Below are positions 8,301-64,000 of a stretch of 64,000 nt of DNA, in pieces (the stretch's first letter is position 1; the number at the start of each line of letters is the position of its first letter). The stretch is from Argopecten irradians. Its lineage: Eukaryota > Mollusca > Bivalvia > Pectinida > Pectinidae. The notes under the pieces are model-generated. The model was not told the DNA's origin. It searched no databases and worked only from the letters and a program-made list of their open reading frames with translations. The DNA lies in NCBI RefSeq assembly GCF_041381155.1, contig NC_091142.1, positions 35,265,604 to 35,329,603 on the forward strand, read 5' to 3'. A program made the translations under genes and the position numbers.

Positions 8301-8470
8301 AGAAGCTTCCAGAGCTAGATTTTGCTAATTGTGCGATGACCGGATAATCATATATCAAAAGTGACAAGATATCAAACTAAATATGTAGATCGGACTTTCG
8401 GTACCCGGGTGCAACTGCATGCTTGTAACTAAGATTGATTGATTAACTGTTATTGATTTATTGTTTTACA
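2346..8470. other. AT-rich region without supported genes
   Basis: I see no exon with recognisable protein similarity or good splice sites here. A 35-bp direct tandem duplication lies at 4863-4932, and a G-rich plain strand at about 4390-4700. The sequence AAAAT|GTAAGT near 6070 could be the donor of a noncoding first exon of the NLR-like gene, since that gene's start exon is preceded by an acceptor at 8471; this pairing is inferred only from the sites. Open frames here, for example 6451-6774 on the minus strand, have no family features. Confidence 0.5.
4863..4932. repeat. 35-bp tandem duplication, two copies
   Basis: The unit starting TCACAATGAGTAATACCC is present twice in succession without visible change, so the duplication is probably recent. 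It falls in noncoding sequence. Confidence 0.85.
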
Positions 8471-8478
8471 GGGACAAC

Positions 8479-11400
8479 ATGGACCCAGCTTGGGCCAACA
8501 AGTTTAACAATGCCAGCAAAGAACGAGAGTATTTAGCCAGAACAGCATGGTTGCTTTTAGATGGTGGGACAACTGCGCTGAGGACAGTCTTCGACAGCGT
8601 GCATCCACCATTGAACCTCCGGGACCATCTCGCGCAGGCGCACGTGCGAGCAGTACTTTGCCGTCTTCATGAGGAACAAAATGTGATATCAGAAAACCAA
8701 TGGAAACTTTTGTATCCTCTAAAGAAAAAGCACGTGCTGTCTCAGAAGTATGATAGTCACTTACTTCTGACCCTGCTACAGTCTATCTGTCACCTCTGTC
8801 CTCCCTATCCTAATGGATGGCACGCACAACCAATGTCGACAGACAGCAGTCTGGCCGCGGATATCGTCAGGATGCAACTCCTTCACCAACAGGTGGCCTC
8901 TATGGGTAGGTAATTCTGCATTCAAGCATGTTATATAATATTGGTCAATATAATCTCATGCAGGTTTGTTTATACGGATAGCCAAGGATGATATTTAGGC
9001 TATAAAAATCAATACAATGAAAACGGTCTTAAATATATAGTTCATATTTAAACAATGGTTTCTTTGTGAAGCTTCCTACACTATATTATTTTAAAGGTTT
9101 ATGGTTTGTATGATGTGTACAAATATATTGTTGAATCCATGTACGTTAAAGATTGAAAAATAACTCGCTTTAAAGGTTCCAACATTCAAATATTGAGAAA
9201 ACGTATTAATTATGGTAAATTCTTGTGGTAAGAATTGTCAGTTGTGCAATACATGCCAGAAGGATATAATTACAATAAGTTGTTTTTACATTGACAGAAA
9301 CCATGACGCTTGATGAATATGCCAGAATTTGGCGGCAGGCGCGTGATGTGCTCTTCCGGTTGGGTGGTCCACCAATTCGGGTCAAGATACATAGAATAGA
9401 ACACGAGGTGATGACACAGGAGATGCAGACCCATTATATCAACACGTTCATGGCGGGATGGGGAGACGGGCGGAGGGTTATTTCTACTCCCAAGTCAGCC
9501 GACTCACTTCGGAAAGCGCGGAGGAATCGCCAAGCCAAACACAACAACGACCAAAACGGTAAGATTCAGATAAATACTAAACTAAATATGCAAAGAAGAT
9601 AACTATAACTTGAGTCACTATCAGGTGTCCTCTATGGTTCTGTATACAACAAAGTGAGTAGTGAGTTGATTAATACGCCAAAACGATAATTTACAAACAA
9701 ATAGTTTCCATATTTTTTCTTAAGATATGCTACCCCGTCCAATCACGAAAGTATTATAGCATTTGTCATTAGACGTTATTTAAATTATAAAAAAAGAAAT
9801 CTTACTTCTCTTTTTAGTCTTTAAGCAATTTAGGGTATTATTTAGTTTACTTCATTTGTTCCCTTGTACTATCAAACGCCTACATCAGCGCCAAGTAACG
9901 AATACACGTGGCCGGTCTACTATACAGGTATCAATGCCTGTTTAGACGTCTTAAGTGCTACAATATTGCAGCTTTTTACCTCCCCCTGTATATTCGTCAA
10001 CAGGTCTATCACCTGAGGATAAGGTTGTTTGGAGGAAGATCCACAAGCCGTTGGTCGATAACGTGGTCGCAGACGACATACTGGACAGGCTTCAGCAGAA
10101 CCAGGTTATAAAGTTCAGTGACAGACAGGAAATCCTGGCAATCTCAAAGAACTCGGACCGGATGATGAATTTACTAGACAAGATACTCCACTCCAAGAAT
10201 TCGTCTGCTTTAAAGGCACTGATTGAGGCGATGAAGTTCAAATACAAAAGTATACACGACCAGGCCGTACAGATCAGGAAGGAGACTTACAAGAATGGAG
10301 TGCGGGATAATGTTGGTAAGTCAGATGATAGAGTAAAACTCGAGAAGAAAGGAGGAGTGCCAATTTGGGCCCTCTGGTGGCCATGACCGATAAGCATTAT
10401 TGTTGTTCACAGATACCCGGGGGTGAGGACAGCATGATATGACATTTGATTAAGGTCAGGTCGGAGTCCCTTGTGGGTTATGGGGGTCAAACAGGAGGGG
10501 CAATTTTCTGTTTTGTCTAGTTTTGTTTGAACCAAATTATATTTTTGAATGATTTTTTATGAATAATGATGAATTTATATGTTAGAAATAAAACATTTTG
10601 GAAAATATGACCTAGTGTAAACAAATAGGTCACAGTGACCTAATTTTGTTAAATGTAAATTATTCAAGAATAAAGTTAATCTGGTGCCATAATGTACCAG
10701 ACAAAATGCTATATACATATTAAATTGCATTGAGCTATATATTTGCATATTATAAACTTAGGCAGAGGAGAATATTGTGGATTAGAAAGGATTTTGCAGG
10801 GGGTGCAGGGGGAGGGGGTGCAGGGGGGGAGAGGTGAGGAGGATTTTTAATTTTCAAACTTTAAAACACCAATAAATGTTTCTGCTTCCGTTTAGAGGGT
10901 CATATACATGCTCAAATACTTTGCTATACAATTTTGAAATGCAATAATTATTTTGTAAATATTTTAATTTGCATTGTATTATATACACATGTATATTATA
11001 TGTAGTTAAATTCTCTCAAATGCAATTCATTACAAAAAATAATATTATTTTAGTCAGTTCGTCTTATTTTTGAACATATCAATACATTTATTGGTGTTTT
11101 AAAGTTTAAAAAATGAAAAATTCTCCACCCCCTTTCCCCCCTCCTGGTGCCCCTCCTCAATCCCATCTCAACTTTTTTCTGCTATACAATGGCACCAGAT
11201 AAACATTTTTCTTTTATGATTGACATTTTACAAAATTAGGTCACTGTGACCCAGTTTTAGACATTAAGTGACATTTTCCGAAATGTTTTATTTTTAACAT
11301 ATAAATGCCTTATTATTCATAAAAATCATTCAAAATTATAATCTGGTTCCAACAAAACTTGACAAAACAGAAAATTGCCCCTCCTGTTTAACCCCCATAA

Positions 11401-14400
11401 CTCACAAGGGACTCCGACCTGACCTTAATCATATGTGATATCATGTTGTCCTAACCCCCGGGTATCTGAACAAAAAATAATGGTTATCGATCATGGACAC
11501 CAGAGGGCCAAAATTGACACTCCTCCTTTCTACATAACTCTGATATTGAATCGTTAATCGTCTACAAATTCTACTGTTGTGGTTTGCGGAGCAGTTATGG
11601 GTATTGCAATCTCTGTAACTTAACAAACATGAAATTCTTGTAGTAAATATAGCAGGAATATCATACTTTGGTGCTAATTGTATTTTTGGAGTGGTTTAGA
11701 GCTTCAGATCTTGTAGCTGTGTTGTTACTGTATATACATATCTATATTACATTGATTCTGATTGGGTTTCAGATAAGTATAGTGTCTGGTTATTATATAT
11801 ATGTTACAATGATTCTGATTGGTTATCAGATGTAGTAGGTGTTGTTGTTATTACAATGTTAAAATGATTCTGATTCGGTATCAGATGTAGTGGGTGTTGT
11901 TGTTATTACAATGTTAAAATGATTCTGATTGGGTATCAGATGTAGTGGGTGTTGTTGTTATTACAATGTTAAAATGATTCTGATTGGTTATCAGATGTAG
12001 TAGGTGTTGCTGTTATTACAATGTTAAAATGATTCTGATTGGTTATCAGATGTAGTAGGTGTTGTTGTTATTACAATGTTAAAATGATTCTGATTGGGTA
12101 TCAGATGTAGTGGGTGTTTTTGTTACATGTGTTACAATGATACTGATTGGGTTTCAGATGTAGTGACTCTGGTTATTATATACATGTACATGTATATGTT
12201 ATAACGATTCTGATTGGGTTTCAGATGTAGTGGGTGTGGTAAGTGAGGTCATGTGCAGCCATTACAAGCAAACCTATAACAAGTGTCAGCCTTTCGCTTG
12301 GAACGAATCGGTTACCGTTAACATCCGGGATATCTACACGCCACTAGACATTCTCAATTCGGAAGGGTAAGTACATGTTCTTCATATTGCCATAAAATCA
12401 GGTTTCCAAATCAAATCTAAAATTCATTTTTTACATGTAACAGGTGCAAATACCGTCTATTTCAAAAAGGCTTTGATCTTCACAAATATTTTTCACTGTT
12501 ATTGTAATACAAGTATGTGATATAGTATACATTTATCCGCGAATAAAAAGCTAGATTTTATTTTCAAAATCTTAATAATGATTTCAGAAAACGACTTCAT
12601 CTCCATGACTTCTGTCCTGCACCCACCACCAATGGACGAGGACAAAGGGTAATGTTGGAAGGTGCAAGCGGAAGTGGAAAGTCTGTTCTATGCCAGATGG
12701 TGTCCTATATCTGGGGATCACAAAAGTCCTTCTTCAGACATCGTTATCCCATCTTCCTGCACGTAGACCTACAGGTCATGGAGGGCGGCTTCTACGAACA
12801 TGTGTACGACAAGTTCTTCCCTTCTGGCCACAGCCTCGATCTGACAGGATTTCGTGACATGTTGGATGACCATTCGTATGACGTCATGGTGCTTATCGAC
12901 GGCTATGACGACGGATGTAATGTACCGGAAGTTCAGTCAATTTTATCAGGAGAAAGTCTTCGTCTAGCGACAGTTATCGTGGCTTGTAACCCGGAGCTTC
13001 TGTCTTCCGGTCATTTCACCCCCGATAGTAAGATGTTCTGCATGGGGTTCAGCCAAACAAACGTCATCAAGTGCATAACAAACTATCTAGAACAATCCAA
13101 AGTCAATATTGAGCACCATCAAAAGTTCATAGATACCATGGCGAACGACAAATGGCTATTGAAACCGTACCTCAATCTTCCAGTGGTTGTGCTGCTCATA
13201 TTTGGATATTATCAAACGACGAAAAACGCCAAACTTCTCGACATAGAAACGGTCACGGCACTATTCGAGTCGTACGGTATCTCGATGGCAATGCACTTGT
13301 GCAAGAAGCAAAAGATTGATGTCATTGGATATGAGTTTCCAGATGACGTCATTTCAGGTGTGGAACGCCTAGGAAGTTTTGCTTTTAACACATTGCTTAG
13401 CAACCGTAAGGCTTTCGGCGAGGATGAACTTGCACTCGAAATGGACAACCCGGTTGCATTAAAACTCTGTGCCTTTTCCAAATTCATGCTTGGTTCTAAA
13501 GTCAAGTTCTTGTGTGGACTCATGCAGGATTTCCTGGCGGCAAAACATCTTGCAGATTTCGTCATGGATGACATCGTCAAAACTTTGAAGGATAATGGAA
13601 TGACAAAGAAACCAAAGTATACACAGGTCGTGAGCCTCTTGTCCGGCCTCTATAGGTTTGATTACGATACTTCTGTGCTTCGCGCCATTTTCACAGAACT
13701 CGCCGTCCGTAACGTCCGTCAAACGCGAGTGCCGACCGGACAAGAAACTAATACCTCATCTTCTGACAAGAAACTGAGGCCACCAAGCGGGCAAATCATG
13801 GATTTTAATACTAGCCTCCAGTCTCTTATTGAGTGCCAGTCACGTGAAGACGTGTGTAAAATTGTCGCACAATCATTACCGCCAAGAATCCTGGTGCGAC
13901 GAGAGGGACTTATACCTTCCAAATGTCTGTACGCCCTGCAGAATATGCTCCAGTTTGATGAAAACCGCTTGTCCCATTTGGAGTTTCACTTACAGCCCAT
14001 GTATATGTACCAACAGAACCAGTTCAGGGATTTAGCCATCTCGGCAGCAAATAACTCAAATCTTACAAGCCTTAAAGTGCAGTGGTCATCATTCGACTTA
14101 ATGTCAAAGTTCATGTGTACCTTTATGACTGAGACTAAGCAGATCCAGCACGTGACTTTGGAGGATGTGTATAGAAAGCCTTTATCAACAGTGCCTGCTT
14201 CTACCTGGGCGGCCTTCCAAACAGCCTGTGAAAACATGTCAAAGGTGTCTCGCGTGTCCTTCATCAATTCAAAGGAAGCAGCAGTGACCTACTTTTTCCT
14301 TCAGCACCTCCCGCACTCAATCAAGGAGTTGGAGCTACGAGGGTGTGCTATGAACATGATGTGCGCTGGCGAAATCAGCTCCAAACTAGAAAACACTGTA

Positions 14401-14784
14401 GATTTGGAGAAATTGGACCTGACTGGGACTCACCTTACCGGCTCTGATTTCGTCCCTATATTACAAGGATTAAAGCTGTGTAGTTCAATCAAAACCCTTA
14501 AGATGTGTGGCGCGAAACTTGACCGATCAGCTGTGGACGCATTGTCCGAGTGTCTCAAACTGACCAGGTCATTGCAGATACTGGACTTGAGTGAATGTCA
14601 ACTGACCACTGACATGTGTCAGAAACTGGCCGGAGCGATTGTCCAGAATCGGACACTACAGAGACTGGTGTTGAAGAAGACAAAAGTGACGTCAGAAGGA
14701 CGTGACGCCATTTCGCATTCGAAATTGGATCAGATCAAGGTTGTAGGTTTGGAGGACAGTTTACATGTGGTGCACACGACTTGA
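8479..14784 (+). CDS. NLR-like protein: HEPN-CARD-NACHT-LRR
   Basis: Five coding exons join in frame: 8479-8905, 9298-9558, 10004-10315, 12225-12366 and 12588-14784 (3339 nt, 1112 residues plus stop), all at GT/AG sites. Residues ~15-185 match the DZIP3-type HEPN family (LLLDGGTTALRTVFDSVHPP, then an R-x4-H pair, R131/H136). Residues ~239-322 look like a CARD, a six-helix death-fold. NACHT follows: Walker A GASGSGKS at 406-413 and Walker B VLIDGYDD near 482-489, then winged-helix-like sequence. Residues ~959-1092 hold four 28-residue RI-type leucine-rich repeats and a partial fifth. By family knowledge this is a cytosolic sensor that oligomerises through NACHT and signals through CARD; the ligand is unknown. 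Exon 1 begins after a TTTTACAG acceptor, and the first in-frame ATG (8479) lies eight bases inside, so a 5' noncoding exon is likely. An ATTAAA lies ~25 nt past the stop. The exon joins are predicted, not proven. Confidence 0.9.
10346..11537. mobile_element. 1.2-kb foldback element in NLR intron 3
   Basis: The outer ends are inverted repeats: GAAAGGAGGAGTGCCAATTT near 10350 is mirrored by AAATTGACACTCCTCCTTTC near 11510. The pairing continues through CAGATACCCGGGGGT, GGTCAGGTCGGAGTCCCTTG, GAGGGGCAATTTTCTGTTTT and GGTCACAGTGACC-like blocks almost to the centre near 10940. There is no open frame for a transposase. It is best read as a long non-autonomous foldback transposon or a decayed inverted duplication. 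It starts about 30 bases after the CARD exon's donor. Target duplications were not certain. Confidence 0.8.
11829..12224 (+). repeat. 55-bp tandem array ending at the exon 4 acceptor
   Basis: Five regular 55-bp units (11829-12103) and two diverged, length-variable ones (to 12224) each end in GATTCTGATTGG-G/T-T-A/T-TCAG and begin with ATGTAGTGGGTG. Degenerate copies extend left to about 11748. The last junction, at 12224/12225, is the acceptor used to keep the NLR frame. The array therefore repeats the real 3' splice site together with the first bases of exon 4. Confidence 0.85.
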
Positions 14785-16481
14785 TTAAAAACCATAACAA
14801 ACGTAAACCATTAAAATAATCAAACTTGTATGGGGGCCATGTTCACTTGCCGGCTCACAGTTGGATATTCTGTACTGATGTGAATATTTCGGGGCAATGG
14901 CACAAAACGTTACCCCGCGAAATCAAGTATAACATACTTGTGTTTTACTACCAGCCAAATACACGTTCATAACTTTACGGAAACAAACGTTCATTTTTAT
15001 ATGTCTAATGGAAAATGAAAGGACATGACAGTGATAATAATGCAGGACATTTTTATATGTCTAATCCGTCCAAGTTATATTTCATTGGAAAATGAAAGGA
15101 CATGACTGATAATAATGCAGGACATTTTTATATATGATATATGGCTATTTGACGATTCCATGAGGATCTGTTCTGTTTTCATTACTTAAAGATACTGGGA
15201 AGTAAATCCGTCCTATCATGTATATGTAATTTGTAATCCGCAATCATTAACAGAGGGTTTAATCCTAAAGCTTTTGTTAATGATTCATAGGAACAGATTC
15301 GTTTTTTCTAAAGAAGCCAAAAAAAATCCTAGCTTATATATTAATATAAAATTAGCTTTATATTTACCACAATATATAATGAATTATTTATTTATATTTA
15401 TTTTATGATACCATACGTTTAAGTTTTATTAAACAAGTTGATATATCTTTGTATGAACTATATGTTTGTTGAAATGTTAATTGTGTACATATATTACATG
15501 TAGTCAAATATCAAGATAGATAGAAGTTGTACAGCATACCGATAAGGTGTTCAAACTAGAAATGATTACGCAAAATACAAGTAACTGTGATACAATTCTG
15601 GACTGTGATAAATATCGTATAAACTCTTTATCCTAGTCTGTAAGTGTGTTGTATCCCAGACCGAGACCAGGGGTGCCTGGTCAGGACTCCACCCAGCTTT
15701 CACTGTATCGTTTCTTGAGCTGAGAACGGGTCGGTCTGTGCTGAAGTAGTAACCCCCTCCTCATTGCACTGTCCGACAGGCGGCGGGTCTCCAATATGTA
15801 GTGCCGTTATATAGACACTAACTAGTAGCTACCACATACATTACAACATATTAGGACAATGGCTGTTCATAATCTGAGTAATGATCAGGTGTAAAATTTT
15901 AGTATGCAACATTTCAAATTAGATTATGATAAGTTTATGTCGAGTCCTATTGCTAACTATTATTACTCACCAGTATTTATTATCTTGTATTACGATGTTT
16001 TTGCATTGTTATTATAAGAATGATAGAAATATAAACAACAATTAAATTTATGGACTATGTACATTAATATGTATGCATGGAGTTTCAATTATATTTTTAT
16101 TGAGGTCTTATTGTGTCAGGATTTGATTAGGAGTAATAAATTATAAGTTATAGAATATTTGGTCATTATACAGAAAGATTACTTGTATTACAAATATTGG
16201 GCAAGTTTTTGGGAAATGTCATTTATATCCATGCTAGTTGACTATAGCCATTCATCCATACAGTTATTTATTTACCATTGTACATCACAAATTGAATCCC
16301 CTATCTCTTGATAAAATGTCCAATCTTTCTCTTTTTGCTGTCTTATTTGATAACTTTAAACCAAATAATGTCCCATGTGATTAACTTTCACGTTTTTTAC
16401 GGGAGCATGATAGATATCGCGAAAACTTATCACGGCGAAAATCATTCCAGCACAGTGACGATAAAATGTGTTACTTTCAAT
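14785..16481. other. 3' flank of the NLR-like gene
   Basis: No gene is supported. At 14993-15135 a block containing ACATTTTTATATGTCTAAT and GAAAATGAAAGGACATGAC is repeated in two to three imperfect copies. A less AT-rich stretch at 15640-15830 (CCCAGACCGAGACCAGGGGT through CGGCGGGTCTCC) stands out from its surroundings. It may be a fragment of a dispersed repeat, but no second copy lies in this window. Confidence 0.5.
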
Positions 16482-17436
16482 CACGATATTAAATTAGCAT
16501 CAAAAACTTGTAATGCTTTACAACACGATAGTAAATTGGCATAAAAAACTTGTAAGGCTTTACAACACGATAGTAAATTGGCATAAAAAACCCGTAAGGC
16601 TTTCAACACGATATTAAATTGGCATCAAAAACTTGTAAGGCTTTACAACACGAAATTAAATTGGCATCAAAAACTTGTAAGGCTTTACAACACGATATTA
16701 AATTGGCATCAAAAACTTGTAAGGCTTTCCAACACGATAGTAAATTGGCATAAAAAACCCGTAAGGCTTTACAACGCGAAATTAAATTGGCATCAAAAAC
16801 TTGTAAGGCTTTACAACACGAAATTAAATTGGCATCAAAAACTTGTAAGGCTTTACAACACGAAATTAAATTGGCATCAAAAACTTGTAAGGCTTTCCAA
16901 CACGATAGTAAATTGGCATCAAAAACCCGTAAGGCTTTACAACGCGAAATTAAATTGGCATAAAAACTTGTAAGACTTTACAACGCGAAATTAAATTGGC
17001 ATCAAAAACTTGTAAGGCTTTCCAACACGATGTAAATTGGCATCAAAACCGTAAACTTGTAAGGCTTTACGACACGTCAAAACCTAGCTTTACAACCGAA
17101 TTAAAGGCATAAAAACCGTAGGCTTACAACGCGAAATTAAATTGGCATCAAAAACAAAAGGCTTTCCAACACGAAATTAAATTGGCATCAAAAACTTGTA
17201 AGGCTATCCAACACGATAGTAAATTGGCATCAAAAACCCAAAAGGCTTTACAACACGAAATTAAATTGGCATCAAAAACCCAAAAGGCTTTACAACACGA
17301 AATTAAATTGGCATCAAAAACTTGTAAGGCTTTACAACGCGAAATCAAATTGGCATCAAAATCCAAAAAGGCTTTACAACGCGAAATTAAATTGGCATCA
17401 AAAACCCGTAAGGCTTTACAACGCGAAATCAAATTG
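16482..17436. repeat. 42-bp minisatellite, about 22 units
   Basis: The unit reads AAATTGGCATCAAAAACTTG then TAAGGCTTTACAACACGAAATT, with recurrent variants (CCCGT or CCAAAA for CTTGT; GATAG for GAAAT). It repeats head to tail with a few shortened units near 17030-17130. Because 42 is a multiple of three, both strands carry short open repeat frames (14-residue period). These are explained by the repeat and have no gene-like start or flanking exon. Confidence 0.95.
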
Positions 17437-18396
17437 TCATGAAAAAGTAACGCGAAAAATAAGTTGTTCTACAGTATCTTTCTCTTTTAGCTACAAGGGA
17501 ACATCTATTATTTTCCTATCAAGTATTTCTAATGTAATGTAATGTCTATAGTAGACACTATATACTATAACCAATGATTATATAATCGGACAGTGTTACT
17601 GTATATTTTAGTCATTGCACTACACTACTGTCAATAATTACAATTGACTTTGTGATTGTATAACTTAAGGATACATAGCATTATATATTCTATGAAAATA
17701 CTTATTTTTTCTATTTAATTAAATCGCATTTATGAATTTGCTTCATTCTAATTCATAATCAAATTGTTAATAAGTTGATGTTTAACTAAAACCGTCCAAT
17801 CGTTAGACTATCATTAAGCGAGTCTGATTTAAAAGTTTAAACAATAGCAACAGGGTGAAATTCCATGCTTTTGTTTTTACCCTTCATTTTCGCCTATGAA
17901 TATTCGATGCAATAATTTGGTGTTTTAATTTTGTTTAAAACATTTGTGCAGATTCAGAACAGAAGCTTTTAAGTTTAAACAGTGACAACAGGAAAATTAT
18001 CAGCCGATTTAGCAGAAAAGGTTCATTACAAAACATTTCTGGCGTTTCTTTGAAAATTGTTCAAAGTAATGGCTTAACCTTAATCATAACAGAAACACGG
18101 TATCATGGGTATAGGTTCATGAATATGTTACACGAATTAAAGTCATATTTACATCAATTACAAACTGTTTGTCTTATTTTTAATGTCATGTTGACATTCG
18201 GCTGACTGTGCACTTTGGAAGTCTTTACGTTGCTTACTTGAGCGTTTGAAACGAAAGGACAGAACGAAGGTAGAGCTAAAGGAGATATTTGAAAACACTC
18301 TTTTATAAAGGAGAGAAAATTACCATCCTGACCATTGTCGTCGTTTTTGGTTATAAAATGTTGAGAACATATACAATTCCAATACATCACTTTGTA
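17437..18396. other. AT-rich spacer, nothing recognised
   Basis: No exon, RNA gene or clear repeat was seen between the two minisatellites. Confidence 0.5.
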
Positions 18397-19294: not shown

Positions 19295-20101
19295 CTATGG
19301 TGGCCTATAGACTTTTTGTGATTTTACTGAAATGCGTTTTTTGCAGCCATTAATGAAAATCCCAGTGAGTTCCTTTCCATAAAGACAACCAGTATCTAAT
19401 CCAGTAGCGAATGGGCAATCCTGAAACCCTCGGACGGCATCATGCCCAAAGTACACATGTTCCGGACCTGGCCATGTAGAGGACCACTTTTCCCCATTAG
19501 TTCGCATTTCACTCGCTTTTAGGCTGCCGTCATATTTTTTCTCGACATTCCTCATAACTATCATGTCTGTAAGATCTTGGCTTTCAAGAGGAATACCAGG
19601 CACAAGTCCCGCATGAACTAGTAACGCGTTGCATGACGGGATAGATATTGTGTAGGGAAGGTCAGTTAAGAAGTCCGCATCTGAATCAGTAAGATGCTTG
19701 CACCATTTGTACTTGGGTGGAAATTCATAGTTAGAGTCTTTCCTGCGATTCAACAGTTGTCTTAAAACGGCTTCGTCATGATTGCCCCTCACAGAGTAAG
19801 CGTCCATGTTTTGGATTTTGTGAAGAACTTCTACATTCTTCGGTCCCTTGTTAATCAAATCACCAACGAAAACAGGCAGAATGGGCCTGCTTGGTTCGGC
19901 ACTTTCTGCTAGACTTAATAGTTCTAAAAGTTCGTCATAGCAACCATGTATATCCCCAATCACAAAGACGCTTCTATTTCCTATTACGTCATCGTCCAAA
20001 ACAAAATGACACTTCTGAGGAAGTGGTAAGTTGTATTTTGACCGTCTCGCCGGAGACGATTTAAATATAAATGAACATATGTACGAAAGAAGACCAGCCA
20101 T
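19295..20101 (-). CDS. ApaH-like metallophosphoesterase, 268 aa
   Basis: This uninterrupted 268-residue frame carries the full set of PPP-superfamily metal-site motifs: GDIHG (49-53), GDLINKGP (80-87), GNHDE (106-110), LVHAG with H163, and GHD (219-221), followed by GLDTGCLYGKELT. The NKGP second motif is characteristic of bacterial ApaH and eukaryotic ApaH-like phosphatases rather than of PP1/PP2A, which have a GDYVDRG form. Members cleave dinucleoside polyphosphates or related pyrophosphate bonds; the trypanosome ALPH1 is an mRNA decapping enzyme. The substrate here cannot be told from sequence. The N-terminus (MAGLLSYICSFIF) is hydrophobic but short and followed by basic residues. The ATG at 20101 is in good context, and an acceptor-like tract at about 20184 suggests a spliced 5' leader. 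The family has a patchy eukaryotic distribution. Confidence 0.9.
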   Translation of the reverse strand: MAGLLSYICSFIFKSSPARRSKYNLPLPQKCHFVLDDDVIGNRSVFVIGDIHGCYDELLELLSLAESAEPSRPILPVFVGDLINKGPKNVEVLHKIQNMDAYSVRGNHDEAVLRQLLNRRKDSNYEFPPKYKWCKHLTDSDADFLTDLPYTISIPSCNALLVHAGLVPGIPLESQDLTDMIVMRNVEKKYDGSLKASEMRTNGEKWSSTWPGPEHVYFGHDAVRGFQDCPFATGLDTGCLYGKELTGIFINGCKKRISVKSQKVYRPP

Positions 20102-20370
20102 TTTATTCTCCTTGTTGTGCGATGATTATTCTGTCTGTGTTTCGTTCGGTTGGTGATTTCCCGAGAACCTCAATATCTTGAAACTGAAAAAAAAACAAAA
20201 AAAACAACACTTTTTTATCAAAGAATTAACGAAGTTCAATCTTTGGTAGTTTGTCAATTCGGTGTGATAATATGTGGATGTACATGTAAATACATTTAAA
20301 AACTTCAAGTAATTATTGAAACTCGCCACGTATACAGTATGCATTTTGCATTGATGTCATTACAAATATG

Positions 20371-31847: not shown

Positions 31848-32613
31848 TATCACAAAGAATTTTGTGATAAATTTTAAAGTGCTTTGAACTTTGCGTTAAT
31901 AGTTGCTAAATTTTAACATCAATTATCAGTTAATACTATTGTGTGTAATTTGACATTCCTAAGGTTATATTCTTGATCATATTTACGTTTGTGACATTTG
32001 AGATAAAATCCTTATGTGTGATAACTGTGTATATCCTCTGGCAATTTACTTTGATACCTTTTCTGAAAGATCTTAAGTTCCATTCTATTACGTAACCGGA
32101 TTAATGTCACGGCCATCCTAATTGCCTAAAGGACACTGACCACGGCTGATTAATCTGCCAATGAGCGATATCTGTCAATCATAATTCTGTAATTTTATTG
32201 TATGTACATTATTTAAGCATGAAATATTTTATTTGTAAAGCAGTTAGGTCTCCGACTTTGTACGGAACACATCAGCTATATTCTGGACACTCCAGAATAG
32301 CCATCCGTCAAGTCAAAGTTATCATCATTAAATTCCAAAGTTCAACTTCAACAGTTTTCTTTCGTCATCTTTACATCGTGACAAAACGTGCGGAAGTTTC
32401 CGTATGTTAATTGGTGGAGATAATCCTGGTAGTACCCACTTCTACGCTCGGTACGCTTTCCCGAAACCTCAACTGCCAAGCAAGAATTTCCCGCGAGTGA
32501 CTCAAAAGAAGGACCATCTCTATTCGGAATCACACGGACTGGATTTTAACCAAGACTGTGTTCGCCATACTTTGGAGTTAACCAGGGTAACGTTTTGACT
32601 GTAACCATTCAGG

Positions 32614-33531
32614 ATGGCATTATGCTATAGATGTGGAGGCCACTTCGCCCCAAACCATCCGATGTGTTGTCCAGCAAACGGATGTTACTGTTTCCGATGT
32701 GGAAACATTGGCCACTTTTCGAGAATGTGTTTTAATCGAACCGGACATTGTACTACAAATGTTGGTACAACAGGATATTATCCCTGGACCAGTCAGCGAC
32801 AACTGCCTATCCATCCTGTTCCTGTCCCGAAAAACTCTTCGGACAGTAAGTCCGTTATTCGCACTGCACCAAAGAAAAAGGCCAAGTCAACATCTAAACG
32901 GCGGCGAGATTCTGAACGTCTCAGGAAATTCCGAGAAACCAAAAAGGTATTGTGTATTTTTCCATTCAGTGACATTGAAAATAGTGAACTTCAAAACGAT
33001 TTCCAGAAAGACTCTAACTACAACAACCAGATAATTTCATTACAGTCAAAACTTGTTCGTACCAAAATTACCATCTCCAAAATATCAGAAAAGTGTGCAA
33101 AATTACAAAGATCAAACGAAATTCTAGAAGAGGAATGTGCACGCGCCAAAAATGTGAATATAACCAATTATGTGTCTCAAATTAAGGAACTAGAAAAAGC
33201 ATTGGACAACAGAAAGAAAATTATGAAAAGCAAAGACGAAACAATCAGTACATTACAAACAACCGCGAAACAAAAAGAACAGACACAACGACAGATTGCG
33301 AATTTGAAGTTCAAAATTTCGGAGAAGGACGAGGAATTAAAACAGAAACAAAACATAATCACAAGCCTCCAAAAACAACTTAGTTACTACAGCGCTCCAA
33401 ATACTACCAGACCGAATACTTTTCCCGGACCACGAAACCAACCACAAAATAATTCACGACGCCAGCGACCACACATTTCCTATGAAAACCGAGCGAATAG
33501 ACTCCATCAAAACAGAGGACAGTTTAATTAA
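32614..33531 (+). CDS. Gag-like zinc-knuckle/coiled-coil frame, LTR element copy 1
   Basis: This is a 305-codon frame inside the first internal region. Two zinc-binding motifs lie at its N-terminus (CYRCGG..H..CC, then CFRCGNIGHFSRMC, a CX2CX4HX4C knuckle). A basic stretch (KKKAKSTSKRRRDSERLRKF) follows, then a long coiled coil rich in Lys, Glu and Gln, and an Asn/Arg-rich end. This resembles the nucleic-acid-binding part of an LTR-element Gag. The frame looks whole. It is treated as part of a mobile element rather than a host gene. Confidence 0.7.
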   Translation: MALCYRCGGHFAPNHPMCCPANGCYCFRCGNIGHFSRMCFNRTGHCTTNVGTTGYYPWTSQRQLPIHPVPVPKNSSDSKSVIRTAPKKKAKSTSKRRRDSERLRKFRETKKVLCIFPFSDIENSELQNDFQKDSNYNNQIISLQSKLVRTKITISKISEKCAKLQRSNEILEEECARAKNVNITNYVSQIKELEKALDNRKKIMKSKDETISTLQTTAKQKEQTQRQIANLKFKISEKDEELKQKQNIITSLQKQLSYYSAPNTTRPNTFPGPRNQPQNNSRRQRPHISYENRANRLHQNRGQFN

Positions 33532-34330
33532 GACGCGGGACGCGTTTTCCCGGAGCGGAAGGAAGTTATCACAAAGAATTTTGTGATAAATTTTAAAGTG
33601 CTTTGAACTTTGCGTTAATAGTTGCTAAATTTTAACATCAATTATCAGTTAATACTATTGTGTGTAATTTGACATTCCTAAGGTTATATTCTTGATCATA
33701 TTTACGTTTGTGACATTTGAGATAAAATCCTTATGTGTGATAACTGTGTATATCCTCTGGCAATTTACTTTGATACCTTTTCTGAAAGATTTTAAGTTCC
33801 ATTCTATTACGTAACCGGATTAATGTCACGGCCATCCTAATTGCCTAAAGGACACTGACCACGGCTGATTAATCTGCCAATGAGCGATATCTGTCAATCA
33901 TAATTCTGTAATTTTATTGTATGTACATTATTTAAGCATGAAATATTTTATTTGTAAAGCAGTTAGGTCTCCGACTTTGTACGGAACACATCAGCTATAT
34001 TCTGGACACTCCAGAATAGCCATCCGTCAAGTCAAAGTTATCATCATTAAATTCCAAAGTTCAACTTCAACATTTTCTTTCGTCATCTTTACATCGTGAC
34101 AAAACGTGCGGAAGTTTCCGTATGTTAATTGGTGGAGATAATCCTGGTAGTACCCACTTCTACGCTGGGTACGCTTTCCCGAAACCTCAACTGCCAAGCA
34201 AGTATTTCCCGCGAGTGACTCAAAGAAGGACCAACTCTATTCGGAATCACACGGACTGGATTTTAACCAAGACTGTGTTCGCCATACTTTGGAGTTAACC
34301 AGGGTAACGTTTTGACTGTAACCATTCAGG

Positions 34331-35059
34331 ATGGCATTATGCTATAGATGTGGAGGCCACTTCGCCCCAAACCATCCGATGTGTTGTCCAGCAAACGGAT
34401 GTTACTGTTTCCGATGTGGAAACATTGGCCACTTTTCGAGAATGTGTTTTAATCGAACCGGACATTGTACTACAAATGTTGGTACAACAGGATATTATCC
34501 CTGGACCAGTCAGCGACAACTGCCTATCCATCCTGTTCCTGTCCCGAAAAACTCTTCGGACAGTAAGTCCGTTATTCGCACTGCACCAAAGAAAAAGGCC
34601 AAGTCAACATCTAAACGGCGGCGAGATTCTGAACGTCTCAGGAAATTCCGAGAAACCAAAAAGGTATTGTGTATTTTTCCATTCAGTGACATTGAAAATA
34701 GTGAACTTCAAAACGATTTCCAGAAAGACTCTAACTACAACAACCAGATAATTTCATTACAGTCAAAACTTGTTCGTACCAAAATTACCATCTCCAAAAT
34801 ATCAGAAAAGTGTGCAAAATTACAAAGATCAAACGAAATTCTAGAAGAGGAATGTGCACGCGCCAAAAATGTGAATATAACCAATTATGTGTCTCAAATT
34901 AAGGAACTAGAAAAAGCATTGGACAACAGAAAGAAAATTATGAAAAGCAAAGACGAAACAATCAGTACATTACAAACAACCGCGAAACAAAAAGAACAGA
35001 CACAACGACAGATTGCGAATTTAAAGTTCAAAATTTCGGAGAAGGAGACGAGGAATTAA
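34331..35059 (+). pseudogene. Gag-like frame, LTR element copy 2
   Basis: This is the second internal region's copy of the zinc-knuckle/coiled-coil frame, nearly identical to the first but with a shorter open frame (242 codons). It appears broken by about one change, consistent with a non-functional duplicate in the array. Confidence 0.7.
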
Positions 35060-35851
35060 AACAGAAACAAAACATAATCACAAGCCTCCAAAAACAACTT
35101 AGTTACTACAGCGCTCCAAATACTACCAGACCGAATACTTTTCCCGGACCACGAAACCAACCACAAAATAATTCACGACGCCAGCGACCACACATTTCCT
35201 ATGAAAACCGAGCGAATAGACTCCATCAAAACAGAGGACAGTTTAATTAAGACGCGGGACGCGTCTTTCCCGGAGCGGAAGGAAGTTATCACAAAGAATT
35301 TTGTGATAAATTTTAAAGTGCTTTGAACTTTGCGTTAATAGTTGCTAAATTTTAACATCAATTATCAGTTAATACTATTGTGTGTAATTTGACATTCCTA
35401 AGGTTATATTCTTGATCATATTTACGTTTGTGACATTTGAGATAAAATCCTTATGTGTGATAACTGTGTATATCCTCTGGCAATTTACTTTGATACCTTT
35501 TCTGAAAGATTTTAAGTTCCATTCTATTACGTAACCGGATTAATGTCACGGCCATCCTAATTGCCTAAAGGACACTGACCACGGCTGATTAATCTGCCAA
35601 TGAGCGATATCTGTCAATCATAATTCTGTAATTTTATTGTATGTACATTATTTAAGCATGAAATATTTTATTTGTAAAGCAGTTAGGTCTCCGACTTTGT
35701 ACGGAACACATCAGCTATATTCTGGACACTCCAGAATAGCCATCCGTCAAGTCAAAGTTATCATCATTAAATTCCAAAGTTCAACTTCAACATTTTCTTA
35801 CGTCATCTTTACTTCTTGACAAAACGTGCGGAAGTTTCCGTATGTTACTTA

Positions 35852-63224: not shown

Positions 63225-64000
63225 CAGAGTGTTTCATAAATTGTGTTACACTTTTAAAGTTAAATACTATTTTCATTTTTAGTAGATTATTCTGAAATTT
63301 GGACATCATAATGCTAGTACTTGAAATTCTTATATTAATTTAAATATAAATTACTACAATGTTCATTGTTGCCATAGCAACGGTTTTTATGGAGCTTAAC
63401 ATTTTCACAAAATGTGTTCTAGGTGGCGTCCTTTCTGCTTCATTACAGTCGCAACCCTTTTCTTGAAGTTCGTAAGAACTGCAGCACACATGTCTCTCGG
63501 AATGTTGTTGATTTCTCTTTTGATTGCTATTTTGTGTTCATCAGTAATTGTTGGCCTAGGTGAATACACTCTATCCTTCACGTAGCCCCACAGAAAGAAG
63601 TCCAGAGAACTAAGGTCTGGGGAATGAGGTGGCCATACAAACTGTGTCATGTAAGAAATATACCGATCCGTGAAATGTTGTTCGAGCCACTCGATGACAC
63701 AGCGAGCTGTATGTGGTGTTGCACTATCCTGTTGGAACCACACTGAATTGATATCTCTCACTTTTCGTTTCAAAGCAGGTGGAAATTTGGACTTAAATAG
63801 CCTCAGATGGCGTTTTGAATTAACAGAGGCAGTATTGCTGTCAACACAGAAATATGGACCGATAATTAACGAGGAGTTGTTTATTTACCACATTTGATAA
63901 AGTGAAATGAGCTTCGTCTGAAAACCAAACATTACCAAAAAATTCATCTGGCTGCCGAGAGATCAAGTTTGCAAATTCAAGTCTATTATCAATATCTGAT
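63225..64000 (-). mobile_element. Mariner-like transposon, cut by the window end
   Basis: A TA at 63223-63224 is followed by CAGAGTGTTTCATAAATTGT, which matches the usual form of mariner-like terminal repeats (CAGGGTGTTTCAAAAATT type). The transposase runs on the minus strand inside it, and its end at 63405 is close to this terminus. The other terminus is outside the window. Confidence 0.8.
63405..64000 (-). pseudogene. Mariner-like (DDE) transposase, damaged
   Basis: 63773-63405 encodes the C-terminal catalytic part: WFQQDSATPHTAR, then WPPHSPDLSSLDFFLWGYVK, a hallmark of mariner/Tc1-related transposases, ending HLEHIL. Upstream, at about 63999-63850, another frame gives DEFFGNVWFSDEAHFTLSN and VNKQ, the preceding conserved block. 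Between VNKQ and the QQD block, far fewer residues are present than the family normally has there, including the usual GPYFF region, and the two parts are in different frames with stops between. The gene therefore has an internal deletion and a frameshift and cannot make an active enzyme. The N-terminal DNA-binding part lies beyond the window. Confidence 0.85.

Follow-up and report, generated by a model that had tools for sequence, protein, structure and literature searches.

The 64,000-nucleotide stretch of the Argopecten irradians genome analysed in this work (the window; positions are counted from its first letter) harbors on its forward strand a predicted gene of five coding exons, listed in Table 1 together with two repeats of its third intron. 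All four introns begin with a GT donor and end with an AG acceptor, and their phases (1, 1, 1 and 2) join the five exons into a frame of 1112 amino acids with no internal stop, the stop codon lying within the range given for exon 5. These borders, phases and open frame bear out the in-frame joins proposed by the initial annotation and, at the level of sequence, confirm the five-exon gene model as real and well formed. An AG at positions 8470-8471, directly 5' of the ATG, could serve as splice acceptor if a non-coding exon precedes exon 1.

Table 1. Coding exons of the predicted receptor gene and repeats of its third intron (positions in the window)
Feature	Position	Strand	Remarks
Coding exon 1	8479-8905	+	Start ATG; roughly the N-terminal two thirds of the DZIP3-type HEPN domain, including the degenerate active-site segment (HQQVASM)
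Coding exon 2	9298-9558	+	C-terminal part of the HEPN domain, then linker
Coding exon 3	10004-10315	+	CARD (39.1 bits, E 7.5e-10, exon alone)
Foldback (inverted-repeat) element in intron 3	10346-11531		Long, imperfect inverted arms in four nested pairs with 82-93% complementarity
55-bp minisatellite in intron 3	11753-12164	+	Repeat units similar to the splice acceptor of exon 4
Coding exon 4	12225-12366	+	Pre-NACHT linker; phases fit on both sides
Coding exon 5	12588-14784	+	NACHT, helical and winged-helix region, RI-type LRRs, stop codon

Other features were observed in the window outside this gene. Downstream of it lies a 42-bp tandem repeat of about 23 copies (16474-17446), followed on the minus strand by a reading frame for a calcineurin-like phosphoesterase (19295-20122). 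Two near-identical zinc-knuckle reading frames are found at 32605-33528, where the zf-CCHC match is barely above its cut-off, and at 34322-35250, where the copy has a frame change. A minus-strand segment at 63405-63884 has by eye the look of a mariner-type transposase, and no Pfam match was obtained for it at E 0.01.

In the Pfam-A scan of the joined protein, the domains appeared in the order HEPN_DZIP3 (aa 45-189, 105.3 bits, E 3.1e-30, cut-off 27), CARD (aa 243-314, 34.4 bits, E 2.3e-8, cut-off 23.9), NACHT (aa 401-549, 30.1 bits, E 5.3e-7, cut-off 26.7) and C-terminal LRRs (LRR_6, aa 1067-1090, 22.4 bits, E 1.1e-4, slightly below the cut-off of 23.4), which is the order that had been proposed from the letters. 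The first three profiles are matched near full length, the HEPN_DZIP3 profile from position 2 to 144 of 144, which places the domain in family PF18738. When exons 1, 3 and 5 were scanned without joining, the exon 1 part of the HEPN domain scored 78.0 bits (77.8 in the genome search), the CARD 39.1 bits, the NACHT 30.6 bits and LRR_6 on exon 5 26.1 bits, this time above its cut-off; the CARD therefore belongs to PF00619 both in the joined protein and in exon 3 alone. HEPN and CARD, previously called by eye, were thus recovered as families within exons 1-3, and all four families expected from a search of the translated exons were returned. The reversed protein, used as control, gave one match, at E 0.028 and below its cut-off, and none above; all NCBIfam matches were far below their cut-offs, and patterns from exon 5 had no match in viral contigs.

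Comparisons with solved structures point in the same direction for the C-terminal half. NLRC4 is the best structural relative over aa 402-753 (E 1.5e-10), and ribonuclease inhibitor, NLRP and other LRR structures match at about aa 940-1090. Together with LRR_6 on exon 5, these matches agree with the earlier assignment of the repeats to the RI type, as found at the C-terminus of NLRs. Five repeats fit a strict LRR pattern and 15 a loose one; five strict-pattern repeats are short for a ligand-binding LRR. For the CARD exon, the structure search was weak: an E limit of 10 admitted 15 rows, the majority of them unrelated; the best was MDA5 (E 0.053), matched in a segment which we take to be its CARD region, and BCL10 and CARD11 were also among the 15. 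The CARD provides the N-terminal signalling domain of an NLR, and CARD, NACHT and LRRs follow one another in the order of NLRC4 and NOD-type receptors. The vertebrate CARD-bearing NLRs of NLRC4 and NOD type are not known to carry a HEPN domain.

The two halves of the protein are separated by the longest intron of the gene, intron 3 (10316-12224; 1.9 kb), which holds the foldback element, the minisatellite and polyA-like hexamers (AATAAA at 10587, 10669 and 10871; ATTAAA at 10719). By its sequence, the foldback element is one of many genome copies, with 40 scored matches of 90-100% identity, two of them its own arms, and 712 first-look candidates. Between 11770 and 12235, the minisatellite and its flanks contain nine copies, with small changes, of an acceptor-like site, CTGATTGGGTNTCAG/AT, which in eight copies, among them the last, runs on as ATGTAGT. 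The last copy (CAG at 12222-12224) is the acceptor of exon 4 in the model, and the copies may act as decoy acceptors or lead to alternative splicing. Such an intron, together with Met codons in exon 4 and shortly before Walker A, would also suit two genes or two main transcripts, one for a HEPN-CARD adaptor (exons 1-3) and the other for a NACHT-LRR protein (exons 4-5). We regard this division as unlikely, because the GT donor of exon 3 and the AG acceptor of exon 4 match in phase, because HEPN, Death-like, NACHT and LRR domains are described in one annotated protein of Aplysia (PMC9334734), and because an unsystematic look gave no sign of a start exon belonging to the NACHT half alone. From the one gene that we prefer, the contents of intron 3 could give rise to a HEPN-CARD transcript that ends early or to a NACHT-LRR one that begins with exon 4.

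The initial annotation had described the N-terminal domain as an RNase-type or RNA-binding fold. Family and fold support this description, since the joined domain reaches 105.3 bits, compared with 105.2 bits for the best HEPN_DZIP3 match elsewhere in the genome. The RNase active site does not, as revealed by an alignment of the window protein with all 22 other HEPN_DZIP3 matches of the genome and by an earlier, rougher alignment. The motif R-[N/D]-x(3-4)-H is kept in 20 of the 22; in one of the remaining two (C14:18656893) K replaces R and the H is kept, and the second (C13:39057473) is one of the two halves of a frame-broken copy, its partner (C13:39057256) being already included in the 20. 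At the aligned place the window protein reads HQQVASM, with H in the column of the catalytic R, Q, neither N nor D, in the next one, and either S (rougher alignment) or a gap (fuller alignment) in the column of the catalytic H, so that Rx4-6H is absent from the active site. A later exon 1 donor, GTAATT, was considered by eye as a way of restoring the motif and was discarded, since the active-site segment lies upstream of both donors and the use of GTAATT would shift exon 2 into a frame with an early stop.

According to PMC3710099, the His is needed for HEPN RNase activity, and the Arg as well in KEN and PrrC, while HEPN domains lacking the motif are proposed to be probably non-catalytic RNA-binding domains. 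For the DZIP3/hRUL138 family the same source gives Rx4-6H as "mostly conserved", so that losses are allowed for. As the aligned Arg and His are both absent here, the domain appears to be RNase-type by fold and family and not by catalysis, and a family fit as good as any in the genome suggests a loss of catalysis, not a general decay of the domain. It could be argued that the domain is still an RNase through other residues, for example RMQLLH, and is unleashed by oligomerisation of the NACHT. The window HEPN does contain three plain-text Rx4-6H strings (RDHLAQAH, RAVLCRLH and RMQLLH), the motif is reported in 194 of 202 DZIP3-type HEPN proteins of Pinctada fucata (PMC9646362), and HEPN-T proteins are described with an alternative conserved His (PMC3710099). 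None of the three strings, however, falls on the active-site columns of the 23-sequence alignment, which are occupied as described above. RMQLLH in particular was rejected as an Rx4H active site, being out of register, with its R five residues upstream of the active-site column, in a column where most of the other matches also have R. We therefore find an RNase of this kind quite improbable.

The NACHT of the joined protein has intact Walker motifs (A, GASGSGKS; B, VLIDGYDD), as had been noted before, and as expected for an NLR. The winged-helix motif, FxHxxxQEhxA, reads FLCGLMQDFLA, with Cys in place of His and Asp in place of Glu; in the alignment with NLRC4 over the NACHT and the helical and winged-helix region, this Cys falls on the NLRC4 His. 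The motif is described as conserved in NLRs, and the change His443Leu renders NLRC4 constitutively active (PMC7583971). The winged-helix His is also missing from five NLRs listed in the same source (NLRP6, NLRP8, NLRX1, CIITA and NAIP), and therefore its loss does not disqualify the window protein as an NLR. The change to Cys hints at a different off-state and not at a dead protein, and regulation may differ from that of NLRC4, whose winged-helix His locks the ADP-bound form. A genome search with the NOD2_WH profile gave no matches among 10 scored candidates and missed the window gene itself, which makes it a poor guide to other NLRs.

The replacement of two functional positions that are normally conserved, in the HEPN active site and in the winged helix, and an intron invaded by repeats might also be expected of a receptor gene decaying towards a pseudogene. 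Yet 1112 codons remain open, all four introns keep their GT-AG borders, HEPN, CARD and NACHT match their profiles near full length, and Walker A and B are kept; decay thus seems very improbable.

Copy number was examined in the whole genome (845.8 Mb, 1508 contigs) with two queries from the part of the protein that precedes the LRRs, aa 1-381 and aa 382-759. The second query recovered itself alone (one match, three candidates). The first recovered its own four exons, followed by 13 weaker matches to the HEPN part with 28-34% identity, five of them at E above 0.001. As far as these two queries reach, the gene appears to be single-copy. Profile searches returned at least 23 HEPN_DZIP3, at least 56 CARD and at least five NACHT matches, those of the window gene included. 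Among the 23 HEPN matches, that of the window alone lies less than 50 kb from a CARD (1.4 kb; the next case is at 79 kb), and it alone has a NACHT less than 1 Mb away (4.0 kb). Among the four other NACHT matches, two have an NWD1 winged helix, a third (L010) exceeds no cut-off other than those of NACHT and NPHP3_N, and the remaining one is a fragment covering 37 of 167 profile positions; the scan of the three non-fragment frames covered 837 of 1528, 808 of 1350 and 441 of 441 residues. The window gene is thus the sole NLR-type NACHT gene seen in this genome, where a NACHT split by an intron could escape detection.

Contig C13 accounts for 11 of the 23 HEPN matches, the two halves of the frame-broken copy among them. 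The same contig carries a gene (L022, 2198-3940) predicted to encode an nSTAND3 NTPase followed by a DZIP3-type HEPN domain with an intact motif. Both this gene and the window gene join the same HEPN family to a STAND NTPase; in the former, however, the NTPase is of another family, the HEPN domain lies behind it and the active site is intact.

The initial annotation had presented this combination of domains as unexpected for a mollusc, a view that previous studies do not support. Fusions of DZIP3/hRUL138 HEPN domains with TPR, Zn-ribbon, RING, Ankyrin, CARD, NACHT, DEATH and LRR are tabulated for animals, and the family is described as expanded in oyster (PMC3710099, Table 1 for the fusions). 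Anthozoans are reported to have 17-83 HEPN-NACHT proteins (PMC8260672), and the pearl oyster P. fucata more than 50, with 5-20 NACHT genes being typical of other molluscs (PMC9646362). In Aplysia californica, LOC101849611 is described as the sole protein with NACHT and LRR among four NACHT proteins, and, by that description, it shares with the window protein a NACHT, LRRs, a Death-like domain and a DZIP3-like HEPN domain in one molecule (PMC9334734). A lone NLR is thus described for Aplysia (PMC9334734) and was similarly the only one seen here, where the NACHT search gave four full matches, its own included, and one fragment. The P. fucata HEPN-NACHT(-LRR) proteins likewise have an N-terminal DZIP3-like HEPN domain, a central NACHT and, in some, LRRs (PMC9646362). 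They differ from the window protein in number, more than 50 against one, and in the motif, lost here and present in 194 of the 202 HEPN proteins mentioned above; a term search of the main text of that paper found no mention of CARD, which the window protein has (PMC9646362). On the grounds of these fusions, of the HEPN-NACHT proteins elsewhere and of the Aplysia NLR, the four-domain architecture is already known, and what the window gene adds is two informative motif losses. In the open-licence literature, supplements excluded, no gene combining all four domains with a lost HEPN active site was found.

Taken as a whole, these features lead us to favour, as the probable reading of the sequence, a single-copy NLR-type (STAND) receptor in which the NACHT would serve as the switch, the CARD would signal and a non-catalytic HEPN domain would bind RNA or dimerise. 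By analogy with NLRC4-type receptors, the C-terminal RI-type LRRs would probably hold the off-state and act as the sensor of a ligand or partner. Binding of ATP by the NACHT would then cause oligomerisation, which would cluster the N-terminal CARDs and seed a CARD assembly able to recruit a CARD-bearing adaptor, caspase or kinase. The HEPN domain, having lost the catalytic Arg and His, would most likely work as an RNA-binding or dimerising module and not as an RNase effector. As a more tentative proposal, which we hold to be possible though unlikely, the HEPN RNase could have become, in this lone NLR lineage, a non-catalytic module for RNA recognition or pairing ahead of the CARD; a single protein would then link the binding of RNA, of viral or stress origin, by a dead RNase fold to CARD assembly, with a NACHT that does without the usual His lock on ADP.

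Inflammasome-like signalling is poorly defined outside vertebrates. A single detectable NLR with CARD, NACHT and LRRs would offer a simple test bed, free of the redundancy found in the pearl oyster and in corals, with one gene to remove and one CARD whose partners need to be found. The dead HEPN domain would, in turn, allow a precise test of whether the HEPN domains of animal NLRs work as RNases or as binding modules.
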